This document shows, piece by piece, positions 11,083-21,885 of a stretch of 64,000 nucleotides of DNA; positions within the stretch are counted from its first letter, which is position 1, and each line of letters opens with the position of its first letter. A program made the translations under genes and the position numbers. Source of the DNA: an uncultured Aquimarina sp. (lineage in GTDB: Bacteria > Bacteroidota > Bacteroidia > Flavobacteriales > Flavobacteriaceae); assembly GCF_947500065.1 (NCBI RefSeq), contig NZ_CANMQT010000001.1:806001-870000 (forward strand), read 5' to 3'. A model generated the notes under the pieces. The model ran no database searches and was not told the DNA's origin. It saw only the letters and a program-made list of their open reading frames with translations.

Positions 11083-13464
11083 ATGAAAAAAATTCTTTCA
11101 GTACTTACTCTTGTATTAATTTTCTTAGCCGTTTGGTATACCTTTTATAGTAGCATGCCACAACAAATTTCAGGTCTCGATACTCCTGAGAAAGAATTTT
11201 CTACCTTAAGAGCACTAGAACACGTCAAAAAGATCTCTGAAAAGCCTCATTATATAGGTAGTCCTGCACATGATGAAGCTAAGAATTATATTGTAGAAGA
11301 ACTCAAAAAACTAGGTTTGTCTCCAGAAATCCAAGAAGGTTTTTCTATTGGCGATCTGGGCAGCATGACTAAACCTCAGAATATTATTGCTAAAATCAAA
11401 GGTACTACCGAAGGTAAAGCATTACTCCTACTATCACATTATGATAGTAGTCAACACTCTTCCTACGGAGCCAGTGACGCAGCTAGTGGTGTTGCTACAA
11501 TTATAGAAGGTATTAGAGCATATTTGACAAAAAATGTAACTCCTAAGAATGATATTATCATCTGTATTACCGATGGAGAGGAATTAGGCTTAAATGGAGC
11601 CAATTTATTTGTTTCAGAACATCCCTGGACAAAAGATGTAGGTCTTGTACTAAATTTTGAAGCAAGAGGAAGTGGAGGAAATTCCTATATGCTATTAGAA
11701 ACAAACGGCAAGAATGGTAAAATGATAGAAGAATTCATAAAAGCCGATCCAAAATTTCCCGTAACAAATTCTTTAGCATATAGTATTTATAAGTTATTAC
11801 CTAATGATACCGATTTAACTGTTTTCAGAAAACACGGAAATATTGATGGCTATAATTTTGCATTTATTGACGATCATTTTGACTATCATACCGCTAATGA
11901 CACCTGGCAAAATCTTGACTTAAATACATTACAACATCAAGGCAGTTATTTAATGCCATTGTTAACGTATTTTTCTAATTCCGATATTACCAATTTAAAA
12001 TCAGAAGAAGACTTTTTATATTTTAACGCTCCAATATTTAAGGTTATTAAATATCCCTTCAACTGGATTTATCCCTTACTTGGTTTAGCAATTTTCCTTT
12101 TTATTGGTTTAATACTATACGGAAAGGCTAGGTTTCGTATCAATGCTGGTGAAGTCGGAAGTGGGTTTTTAGCATTTATAATTTCTTTAGGTCTAGCAGG
12201 AGTGCTTGGTTTTGGACTCTGGAAATTAGCTTTAATCATATATCCAGAATACAACGATATTTTACACGGTTTTCCTTATAATGGTTATTATTATATAGCT
12301 GGAGCAGTATTATTAGCTATAGCGGCATTCTTTAAAGTGTATAGCATTTTTGATAATTCAGAAGAACTCCCAAGTATATTAGTTGCTCCTTTATTTTTTT
12401 GGATCGTGATTTGCGGAGCTGCCGCTGTTTATTTAGAAGGTGCTAGTTATTTTATTATACCTGTATTACTGTGTCTTTTATGTCAGTTTGTTTTGATTAA
12501 TCAGAAGAAACCATTTCCATTATTAATGCTTCTTTTGTGTCTACCATCGATTATTATGATTGTACCCTTTATTGCAACTTTCCCTGTTGCTTTAGGATTA
12601 AAAATAGCCTTCGTTTCATCGATTCTAACAGTCTTGCTTTGTTCGTTGCTATTACCTGTGATTGGTTTTTATACTAAAAAAAGTATGTTGGGAACTATTG
12701 TTTTCGTGCTAGCATTAATATGCCTCGGAGCATCCCATTTTAAGTCTGATTTCACAAAAGAAAGACAAAAACCAAATAGCTTGGTTTACATATTACATGA
12801 AGACCAAAATAAAGCATATTGGGCGTCTTATGATCATACATTAGATTCCTGGACAAAAAACCATATTGATCGACTTAAAAATCTTGCCAAAGATTGGAAT
12901 CAAAATACTATTGAGAGTAAATACAGTAACTCTTTCAACTATGTTAATACCGCTCCCGTAAAAGATATTAAATCCGTAAAAATTGAAACCACTTTTGATA
13001 GTATTCAAGAAGATTCCAGAATACTAGATATTTGCATACGTCCGCAACGAAACCTAAATAGAATTGATCTATTTATGCGTAAGTCTTTTAATTTTGAAAG
13101 TTTGTTTGTAAACGGAGTTACTCCTAAAGATGTATCACATAAAGATGGTTCTGTGTATAATGCATTTACCAAACGATGGAGCAATCGTCTACTCACATAT
13201 CACCTAAGAGACAATGACCCTTTAGAACTTAGAATGCAATTTCATAAAGATTCAGTCCCTGAAATTGTTTTATATGAATCCTCATACAATCTGTTAGAAA
13301 GTGATCTGTTTTCTATCCCGAAACGTTCTGAAACGATGATTCCAAAACCATTTGTACTTAATGATGCCATTACAATTAAGAAAACTTTGAGATTAGAATA
13401 CACCGAAAAAGTGCTGGATACATTGAGCTCCGCTTCTAAAAAAGCGACTATAAATGAAGAATAA
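11083..13464 (+). CDS. Membrane M28-family zinc metallopeptidase
   Basis: A 793-residue protein. Residues 1-22 form an N-terminal membrane anchor. A periplasmic M28 aminopeptidase domain (about 40-310) has the two-zinc site: His119 (SHYD), Asp132 (GASDAASG), catalytic Glu166 with Glu167 (DGEELGLNGA), Glu193 (NFEARG) and His269 (DYHTANDTWQN). About eight transmembrane helices follow (about 328-570), then a C-terminal soluble domain. The layout is that of the ER-metallopeptidase-1/Fxna-like branch of M28, which is common in Bacteroidota. It probably trims peptides outside the cytoplasmic membrane. The 3' end overlaps the next gene by 11 bp, which implies translational coupling. Confidence 0.9.
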   Translation: MKKILSVLTLVLIFLAVWYTFYSSMPQQISGLDTPEKEFSTLRALEHVKKISEKPHYIGSPAHDEAKNYIVEELKKLGLSPEIQEGFSIGDLGSMTKPQNIIAKIKGTTEGKALLLLSHYDSSQHSSYGASDAASGVATIIEGIRAYLTKNVTPKNDIIICITDGEELGLNGANLFVSEHPWTKDVGLVLNFEARGSGGNSYMLLETNGKNGKMIEEFIKADPKFPVTNSLAYSIYKLLPNDTDLTVFRKHGNIDGYNFAFIDDHFDYHTANDTWQNLDLNTLQHQGSYLMPLLTYFSNSDITNLKSEEDFLYFNAPIFKVIKYPFNWIYPLLGLAIFLFIGLILYGKARFRINAGEVGSGFLAFIISLGLAGVLGFGLWKLALIIYPEYNDILHGFPYNGYYYIAGAVLLAIAAFFKVYSIFDNSEELPSILVAPLFFWIVICGAAAVYLEGASYFIIPVLLCLLCQFVLINQKKPFPLLMLLLCLPSIIMIVPFIATFPVALGLKIAFVSSILTVLLCSLLLPVIGFYTKKSMLGTIVFVLALICLGASHFKSDFTKERQKPNSLVYILHEDQNKAYWASYDHTLDSWTKNHIDRLKNLAKDWNQNTIESKYSNSFNYVNTAPVKDIKSVKIETTFDSIQEDSRILDICIRPQRNLNRIDLFMRKSFNFESLFVNGVTPKDVSHKDGSVYNAFTKRWSNRLLTYHLRDNDPLELRMQFHKDSVPEIVLYESSYNLLESDLFSIPKRSETMIPKPFVLNDAITIKKTLRLEYTEKVLDTLSSASKKATINEE

Positions 13465-14780: not shown

Positions 14781-14963
14781 TTAGCATGCATCCCAACATT
14801 CCTGAACAGAACTTACACAAGAATGTGCTCCATTACAAGTACAATGAATTTCTGAACTAGGACATTCATGCATCAAGGCTTCTCTACCTCCGTTCAAATT
14901 TTTAAGTTCTTCTCTTTCAATAATACGACCTTGCTCTTTAGCAAATTTAATTAAATCACTCAT
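14781..14963 (-). CDS. GG-leader, Cys-rich peptide precursor (putative RiPP/bacteriocin)
   Basis: A 60-residue precursor. The leader MSDLIKFAKEQGRIIEREELKNLNGG ends in a double-glycine site like those cut by C39-peptidase ABC exporters. The core has 34 residues with six cysteines (HECPSS, IHCTCNG, HSCVSS, QECWDAC), so disulfides or thioether bridges are both possible. No maturation enzyme or exporter is nearby. The upstream DNA (14983-15033) carries the same leader element as the peptide genes at 21413 and 21706. The gene has its own terminator and is isolated between the epimerase gene and sdhB. The peptide call is firm; the type of modification is unknown. Confidence 0.75.
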   Translation of the reverse strand: MSDLIKFAKEQGRIIEREELKNLNGGREALMHECPSSEIHCTCNGAHSCVSSVQECWDAC

Positions 14964-14982
14964 TTTATAGGTTTTAAGATTC

Positions 14983-15033
14983 CCTACTCTATTAAAGGCT
15001 TTTCGGTTTACGCCTATTTGCTACATAGCAAAT
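14983..15033 (-). promoter_or_regulatory. Shared 5' leader element, copy A
   Basis: Read on the minus strand: a 7-bp hairpin ATTTGCT-atgt-AGCAAAT (15033-15016), then AGGCGTAAACCGAAAAGCCT and AGAGTAGG. The core matches the elements upstream of the peptide genes at 21413 and 21706. AGGC can pair with GCCT, or the CCT can pair with the later AGG. The ATG is 20 bp past the end of the core. Whether it acts as DNA (promoter/operator) or as RNA is open. Confidence 0.6.
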
Positions 15034-21058: not shown

Positions 21059-21217
21059 ATGAAAACAAAACAAGAACAGAGTATCACTTTTAAAAAGCTT
21101 ACTATCGCTAAGATCAACACAAGTTCTATGCATAAGATAAAAGGTGGAGATTGCGAAGTAATCGAACCTGATATGGGTACTCATGAGAGTATTTGTATTT
21201 GTGATAATCCTTACTAA
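21059..21217 (+). CDS. GG-leader peptide precursor, class I lanthipeptide-like leader
   Basis: A 52-residue precursor. The leader contains FKKLTIAKINTSSMHKIKGG, which follows the LxLxK...I...L..I.GG pattern of Bacteroidota class I lanthipeptide leaders. The core DCEVIEPDMGTHESICICDNPY has three Cys plus Thr and Ser residues that could form lanthionines. No LanB/LanC, ABC exporter or other tailoring gene lies in the window, so processing would have to come from elsewhere. It has its own strong terminator just downstream and a different upstream sequence from the next two peptide genes. Confidence 0.75.
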   Translation: MKTKQEQSITFKKLTIAKINTSSMHKIKGGDCEVIEPDMGTHESICICDNPY

Positions 21218-21318: not shown

Positions 21319-21382
21319 AATCGTAGTACAATAAGTACTTGATTTTAAAAAGGGGAAACCGAAAACCTTGTCAAAGAGTAGG
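21319..21382 (+). promoter_or_regulatory. Shared 5' leader element, copy B
   Basis: A hairpin (AATC..AGTAC-aataa-GTACT..GATT, 21319-21344) precedes a core at 21351-21382: AGGGGAAACCGAAAACCTT, then AGAGTAGG. AAGG/CCTT can pair, and CCT can pair instead with the last AGG. The ATG is 31 bp downstream of the core. Confidence 0.6.
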
Positions 21383-21412
21383 TAAAACACGAATAATTTA
21401 AAACACAAAATT

Positions 21413-21589
21413 ATGTTATCTGAAATTTTAAAATTAAAAGATGTTGAGCAGTTAGACAAAAAACAACAAAAAGGAATTAAGGGAGGTACTATACAATATC
21501 CTATTGGATGTCAAAGAAGAAGAGATTGTATTATAGTAACTGGAGATGCGGGTTGGGCATGTATCAATAGAACATGCATAGCTTTATAA
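21413..21589 (+). CDS. GG-leader, Cys-containing peptide precursor 2
   Basis: 58 residues. The leader MLSEILKLKDVEQLDKKQQ-KGIKGG ends in a double-glycine cleavage site; the core TIQYPIGCQRRRDCIIVTGD... has four cysteines and a basic RRR patch. It is too short to score as an ORF by length alone but is supported by near-identity of its leader and upstream DNA with the following gene. The leader type (MLxxILKLxxVxxLxKxxQxxIxGG) is common for flavobacterial bacteriocin-like precursors exported by C39-type ABC transporters. No terminator separates it from the next gene. Confidence 0.75.
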   Translation: MLSEILKLKDVEQLDKKQQKGIKGGTIQYPIGCQRRRDCIIVTGDAGWACINRTCIAL

Positions 21590-21611: not shown

Positions 21612-21675
21612 AATCGTAGTACAATAAGTACTTGATTCTATCAAGGGTTAACCCAAAACCTTTTCATAAAGCAGG
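21612..21675 (+). promoter_or_regulatory. Shared 5' leader element, copy C
   Basis: The same hairpin (21612-21637) and core (21644-21675) as copy B at +293 bp. The core reads AGGGTTAACCCAAAACCTT, then AAGCAGG. It keeps AAGG/CCTT pairing and the alternative CCT/AGG pairing, although single bases differ. Confidence 0.6.
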
Positions 21676-21705: not shown

Positions 21706-21885
21706 ATGTTATCAAAAATTTTAAAATTAAACAACGTTGCAAAATTAGACAAAGTAGAACAGCAATCTATTAATGGTGGGTACTATTGTAGAACAAATAT
21801 CCGTTGTTCTACAACACAGGATTGTTGGGAGGTAACAGGTGATTTTTCTGATAAATGTCACCAGGGATATTGTCATATATTTTAG
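21706..21885 (+). CDS. GG-leader, Cys-rich peptide precursor 3
   Basis: 59 residues. The leader MLSKILKLNNVAKLDKVEQQ-SINGG is homologous to that of the preceding gene. The core YYCRTNIRCSTTQDCWEV... has six cysteines, against four in its neighbour, and a different sequence. Conserved leader with divergent core is the usual mark of a secreted, processed peptide family. It is followed 27 bp later by a strong terminator, so it ends the peptide cluster. Confidence 0.75.
   Translation: MLSKILKLNNVAKLDKVEQQSINGGYYCRTNIRCSTTQDCWEVTGDFSDKCHQGYCHIF

Follow-up and report, generated by a model that had tools for sequence, protein, structure and literature searches.

The leader element shared by genes for small GG-type peptides in a stretch of DNA from an uncultured Aquimarina sp. 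is the known Rfam family RF02914, DUF805b (clan CL00115), and we put at about 50% the probability that DUF805b acts at translation initiation, as a dock or a protein-binding gate, in a phylum that works without Shine-Dalgarno pairing. Judged from the covariation of its homologues, DUF805b is an H-type pseudoknot in which the first AGG pairs with CCU (S1) and a later GG pairs with CC in the loop (S2). The window, by which we mean the whole stretch of 64,000 nucleotides analyzed, holds the following features.

14982 to 15015, minus strand: DUF805b core, copy 1 (RF02914, 48.5 bits; model R1, 50.9 bits), made up of S1 AGGC/GCCU, loop GUAA, S2 5' strand ACC, GAAAA, a linker, GAGUA and S2 3' strand GGG
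15016 to 15033, minus strand: upstream hairpin of copy 1, directly against the core, with an 8-bp stem and a loop of 2 bases; an optional feature of the family
14964 to 14981, minus strand: spacer of copy 1 from core to start codon, 18 nt
14781 to 14963, minus strand: GG-type small peptide gene of copy 1, 60 aa
21350 to 21383, plus strand: DUF805b core, copy 2 (RF02914, 47.0 bits; model R1, 46.8 bits)
21325 to 21339, plus strand: upstream hairpin of copy 2, 5 bp, 10 nt 5' of the core, read directly
21384 to 21412, plus strand: spacer of copy 2 from core to start codon, 29 nt, long for the family
21413 to 21589, plus strand: GG-type small peptide gene of copy 2, 58 aa
21643 to 21676, plus strand: degenerate copy 3, in which AAGG/CCUU and ACC/GGU are both possible (model R1, 9.4 bits, E 0.97)
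21618 to 21632, plus strand: upstream hairpin of copy 3, identical in sequence to that of copy 2, read directly
21706 to 21885, plus strand: GG-type small peptide gene of copy 3, 59 aa

Identity of the leader element

The Rfam covariance-model scan of the window returned RF02914 at 14981-15016 on the minus strand (48.5 bits, E 9.3e-11 over the window) and at 21349-21384 on the plus strand (47.0 bits, E 3.1e-10). Both matches span positions 1-35 of the 35 in the model, exceed its cut-off of 35.6 bits and lie far beyond chance. RF02914 was the sole family reported, and neither Flavo-1 nor any other Rfam family passed its cut-off in the window. The preliminary description of this DNA had named Flavo-1 as a candidate for comparison and could not match the element to a known riboswitch class; RF02914 now matches copies 1 and 2. 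Start codons lie 18 and 29 nt 3' of these two copies, the placement of the Cis-reg type under which Rfam files the family.

The same description had placed one leader element before three GG-peptide genes on both strands, which holds for copies 1 and 2 but not for copy 3. No RF02914 match was reported for copy 3, permissive filters included, its score with model R1, which was built here, falls under three chance matches in the window, and it deviates from the letters that are constant across 113 aligned matches (GAAAA to CAAAA, GAGUA to AAGCA). It is recognized as a copy only because it has its flank and hairpin in common with copy 2. Copy 1 has A opposite G at the outer S2 position, which leaves it unpaired; in copy 2 (S1 AAGG/CCUU, S2 ACC/GGU) 7 of 7 pairs can form. 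A further GG-type peptide gene, at 21059-21217 beside copies 2 and 3, lacks an upstream DUF805b match.

As printed, the RF02914 model is a 4-bp hairpin alone; the second helix, the start-codon spacing, the promoter position and the use by phages were worked out here. The related family RF03081 (DUF805) has the same core with a hairpin upstream, like the hairpin plus core first described for the window, but it differs in its 68 positions, its own fixed hairpin and the 3-bp S1 in its model, and at its cut-off of 51.1 bits it gave no match in the source genome. In the literature searched, RF02914 occurs in one paper (PMC7682815), and no stated function for DUF805b was found.

A pseudoknot supported by covariation

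Homologues covary throughout the pseudoknot, the test that the preliminary description had proposed. In 113 covariance-model matches (112 distinct) the whole pseudoknot was 97.9% paired, compared with 71.7% after shuffling, and 7 of 7 pairs showed changes on both sides; the model behind these matches encoded S1 only, and one step of the analysis covered 100 of 295 loci. Controls slid along the alignment were 8.8-50.5% paired in the same test. The outer S2 pair occurred as G-C (45), A-U (27), U-A (22) and C-G (7), and the inner S2 pairs switched to U-A in 2 and 4 rows. When S1 was required and the S2 letters were left free, 364 of 375 S2 pairs formed (125 matches, 195 loci), against a shuffled mean of 297 and maximum of 311; the pattern used to collect some of those 195 loci already contained CC and GG, so the free outer S2 pair is the cleaner test. 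The loop letters GAAAA and GAGUA were constant in 113 of 113 matches, a constancy that is partly imposed because the pattern behind model R1 demanded both. Among the viral matches there were two deviants (L318 at 3964 and L392 at 2031).

The first reading of the window was of an attenuator, with CCU alternating between the earlier and the later AGG in two exclusive folds. As a conserved feature this switching did not hold: the pairing of CCU with the later AGG was 84.4% satisfied compared with 84.5% in shuffled rows, with no covariation, and pair 24-41 of the alternative fold failed in 31 of 83 rows. The impression of two folds arises because RNAfold, which cannot form pseudoknots, favors the alternative in copies 2 and 3, where it is the minimum-energy fold; in copy 1 RNAfold picks S1. 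By energy the alternative is nearly as stable in copy 2 (4 bp, -2.4 kcal/mol, against -2.7 kcal/mol for S1 alone), but S1 has a clear advantage in copy 1 (-4.4 against -1.2 kcal/mol). We saw neither a terminator nor a start site sequestered in a way that would provide the output, and the spacer is nearly G-free; we consider an attenuator of this kind highly improbable.

The hairpins noted before the cores do form in the window, but as a part of the element they are optional, most copies of the family being without such a stem. Among the 195 copies without a sigma-54-like site, the 30 bases adjoining the core held stems of at least 7 bp in 14 copies (3.65 in single-base shuffles) and of at least 6 bp in 32 (13.9 in shuffles). 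The stretch from -119 to -90 showed a similar excess (10 against 1.85 in shuffles), perhaps from terminators of other genes, so the excess near the core is by itself not specific. The distinctive feature is the 11 stems of at least 6 bp that end exactly at the core.

Position before genes in hosts and phages

The core keeps a regular place before genes. An ORF-opening ATG lies 12-40 nt 3' of the core in 232 of 259 pattern matches; among the 232, the median spacing is 21 nt, with a 5-95% range of 16-28 nt computed inside that 12-40 nt window. With its 29-nt spacer, copy 2 falls in the tail of this distribution, and the spacer of copy 3 is also 29 nt. The element was further said to be more than a local duplication, and this holds: it is a single conserved leader element, present on both strands, with covarying homologues and a regular place before genes.

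The spacer is poor in G (4.5%, compared with 11.4% before other ORFs). In a subset of the loci with identical start regions collapsed, 153 element genes were compared with 235 other ORFs in the same loci, the latter taken at their predicted starts. A was raised at -12 (124 of 153 against 88 of 235), at -13 (107 against 101) and at -3 (123 against 104) and hardly at -6 (78 against 98, z 1.8). In excerpts of a study of F. johnsoniae, A at -3, -6, -12 and -13 raised translation, and C and G content had virtually no effect on it (PMC6847099); given the latter, nothing about strength follows from the low G content of the spacer. According to an excerpt of PMC9976891, bS21, bS18 and bS6 form a pocket in which the ribosomes of Bacteroidia keep the anti-Shine-Dalgarno hidden. 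Pairing with 16S rRNA was considered and dropped: the 16S rRNA of the source genome contains no complement of AGAGUAGG or of GAGUAGG, and AGAGUA has a single 6-nt complement, at position 480, which is at chance level.

Upstream of the core, a sigma-54-like site was found in 26 of 229 copies, one of them (L172) doubtful. The strict sigma-54 pattern occurred in 20 of 230 copies compared with 0.0 in single-base shuffles, and 18 of these sites end 14-17 nt before the core. By the usual sigma-54 geometry, the core of such copies would begin at about +3 to +6 of the transcript. These sites are not independent, since by eye most of them precede one secreted protein family. That family, with N-termini like MKRLVLLFAGLLIGLT followed by RYRYAQPIMFVERGVEFLIFPDG, carries the sigma-54-like site and the DUF805b leader in many Flavobacteriaceae (L034, L036, L039, L041, L048, L200, L226 and others). 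For the housekeeping promoter TAHHTTTG, 9 exact matches were scattered over 203 upstream stretches without a peak at a fixed distance. A shared upstream motif spotted by eye in the source genome was also dropped, as it occurred in 2 of 22 copies against a shuffled mean of 0.38 and maximum of 3.

The source genome has 23 RF02914 matches, 16 of them over the cut-off. Matches were present in 91 of 149 genomes of the family sample (69 over the cut-off) and in 92 of 296 genomes of the phylum sample (59 over the cut-off), two samples that partly overlap and were searched with filters that lose weak matches; none was found in the 14 control genomes. Among 80 labelled contigs, all containing the motif and with labels sorted by eye, good pairing together with an ATG at 12-40 nt was found in 46 of the 67 not labelled as other phyla, compared with 2 of the 13 labelled otherwise. 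One of these 13, an Ignavibacteriaceae contig, has RF03081 before a DUF805 gene. A metagenome-assembled contig labelled Ruminococcus (L108) carries a perfect element with an ATG at 22 nt and is either misbinned or a genuine case outside Bacteroidota.

Phages use the element as well. Motif matches occurred in at least 120 viral stretches and, among the matches listed, 54 of 123 usable viral matches combined S1, the outer S2 pair and an ATG at 15-28 nt, compared with 0 of 118 for the permuted motif. Of the 76 viral matches, which came from 100 of the 120 viral loci, 72 scored above 26 bits; the loci left out were 16 chance-like ones and L412-L415, which look real. Among these matches as listed, 59 of the 72 copies have an ORF-opening ATG 15-26 nt downstream, and in 34 of 72 the element starts -8 to +15 nt from the stop codon of the same-strand ORF before it, counting ORFs of at least 60 aa. 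For such intercistronic copies, the phage gene that comes before may contain a promoter.

Flavobacterium phage lillamy9-1, an isolated phage, has the element at 12780-12815 (RF02914, 52.1 bits), between a gene that ends at 12776 and one that starts at 12836. The element thus fills the gap between gp040 and gp041, and the gp041 record cites PF02195, which we take to be ParB-like. The best ParB-like PHROG family accounted for 9 of 66 scanned phage proteins among the matches listed; by eye, elements stand before ParB-like genes at viral loci such as L310, L340, L360, L412 and L413 and at lillamy9-1 gp041. An Aureispira plasmid (L448) has the same layout, with the element between two genes, and its cluster continues with a gene for a deoxyribosyltransferase domain and then one for a TIR domain.

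Two alternatives were weighed. Palindromes directly 5' of some copies would suit a DNA element, either an operator or a promoter part, that does not act as RNA; however, the helices covary in pseudoknot order, the sigma-54-like sites lie 5' of the core and copies sit within phage gene clusters, making this reading very unlikely indeed. An mRNA-stability or processing element, which would protect or create a 5' end, is consistent with the 26 of 229 copies whose sigma-54-like site would have the RNA reach the core by about +3 to +6, with the hairpins that end exactly at the core and with the phage copies at gene junctions. Such a role alone would leave the regular start-codon spacing and the invariant loop letters unexplained, and we regard it as improbable.

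Downstream genes and a proposed role in translation initiation

The genes downstream are varied. Protein-family scans covered 192 of 243 downstream proteins (87 + 105), with L236-L275 and some doubtful ones left out, and among the families listed none was higher than DUF6520 (4 of 87) and the bacteriocin-like leader (7 of 105); the NCBIfam figures refer to the first 25 of 53 and the first 25 of 30 families. The proteins include RiPP or bacteriocin-like precursors, DUF6520, subtilases, bacteriorhodopsins, LRR proteins, DUF2589, aldehyde dehydrogenase and DUF805, and many had no family match; no common function emerged from these scans. The DUF805 gene that the name of the family suggests was found downstream in 1 of 87 and 1 of 105 proteins, and in the window the genes are those of GG-type peptides. 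At L236, L237, L238 and L242 the elements precede proteins that by eye are phage-tail-collar-like and caspase-like.

A specificity for GG-peptides was rejected as a rule, the relation being an association. In the source genome 13 of 22 pattern-found elements precede GG- or AG-type peptides (by eye), and of the 64 GG-peptide matches at E<0.01, 13 have RF02914 directly upstream. The 64 GG-type matches represent a large repertoire of small peptide precursors in this genome. At one locus of the genome (L008, C1, about 910113-911264), about 1.2 kb hold four DUF805b elements, and each of the four precedes a separate gene for a small GG- or AG-type peptide.

The preQ1-I riboswitch is an H-type pseudoknot of about 34 nt that acts through a terminator or through sequestration of the Shine-Dalgarno sequence, and DUF805b is similar to it in size and fold, although no preQ1 family was reported in the window. 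This likeness, together with the near-invariant loop letters, would suit a riboswitch in which the pseudoknot is the site of a small ligand, and the variety of the genes would make a second messenger one candidate. However, no expression platform was seen in the sequence, where the spacer is nearly G-free and the core close to the start codon; no family exceeds 4 of 87 or 7 of 105 downstream proteins among those listed, and phages carry the element before ParB-like and other genes. We consider a riboswitch quite unlikely.

At the level of sequence, comparison establishes that the RNA has two helices and the near-invariant loops GAAAA and GAGUA, that it keeps a regular distance from the start codon, that the genes behind it vary and that phages use it too. 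Its fold, its spacing, the variety of its genes and its use by phages are better explained by a role at translation initiation than by a metabolite attenuator. In the mechanism that we propose, a pseudoknot of about 33 nt would occupy the 5' leader or the junction of two genes in one mRNA, followed by an almost G-free spacer, usually of about 21 nt, and the start codon. The 3' edge of the pseudoknot would then be just upstream of the stretch covered by the ribosome, which could bring the invariant loops up against the 30S platform or an RNA-binding protein. Contact there would promote or gate the use of the start codon on ribosomes that do not use Shine-Dalgarno pairing and, in the window, the pseudoknot would set the output of two GG-peptide genes. 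The regular spacing and the strong start contexts fit a repressed message equally with an enhanced one.

The leader of phage T4 gene 32 has a pseudoknot on its 5' side and then an unstructured spacer to the start codon. DUF805b is like it in this order of parts; the T4 leader differs in serving one autoregulated gene and in having a Shine-Dalgarno sequence. By analogy, a global RNA-binding protein could use the element as its site to repress or release a dispersed regulon, nucleating on the pseudoknot and covering the spacer to the start codon as in gene 32. The near-invariant unpaired letters suggest a recognized surface, and the varied genes, with up to 23 copies per genome, and the G-poor spacer are also in keeping with such a site. 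Phages, however, would need to accept host control of their own genes, and we judge this explanation unlikely, though it overlaps with a role at translation initiation and differs from it in the sign of the effect.

A more specific form of the initiation role, which we offer tentatively and consider possible but doubtful, is that Bacteroidota use DUF805b as a portable pseudoknot that recruits ribosomes and takes the place of the Shine-Dalgarno sequence by its structure. Hosts would place it at the 5' end of a message and phages between genes, and dedicated messages, such as those for bacteriocin-like peptides, secreted proteins and phage genes, would gain privileged or conditional initiation on ribosomes that hide their anti-Shine-Dalgarno. 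Start-site choice in Bacteroidota, which do without Shine-Dalgarno pairing, is an open question, and a small covarying knot that hosts and phages share, that keeps a regular distance to the start codon and that is easily moved to a reporter would make the question directly testable. This reading would also give a function to the Rfam family RF02914.
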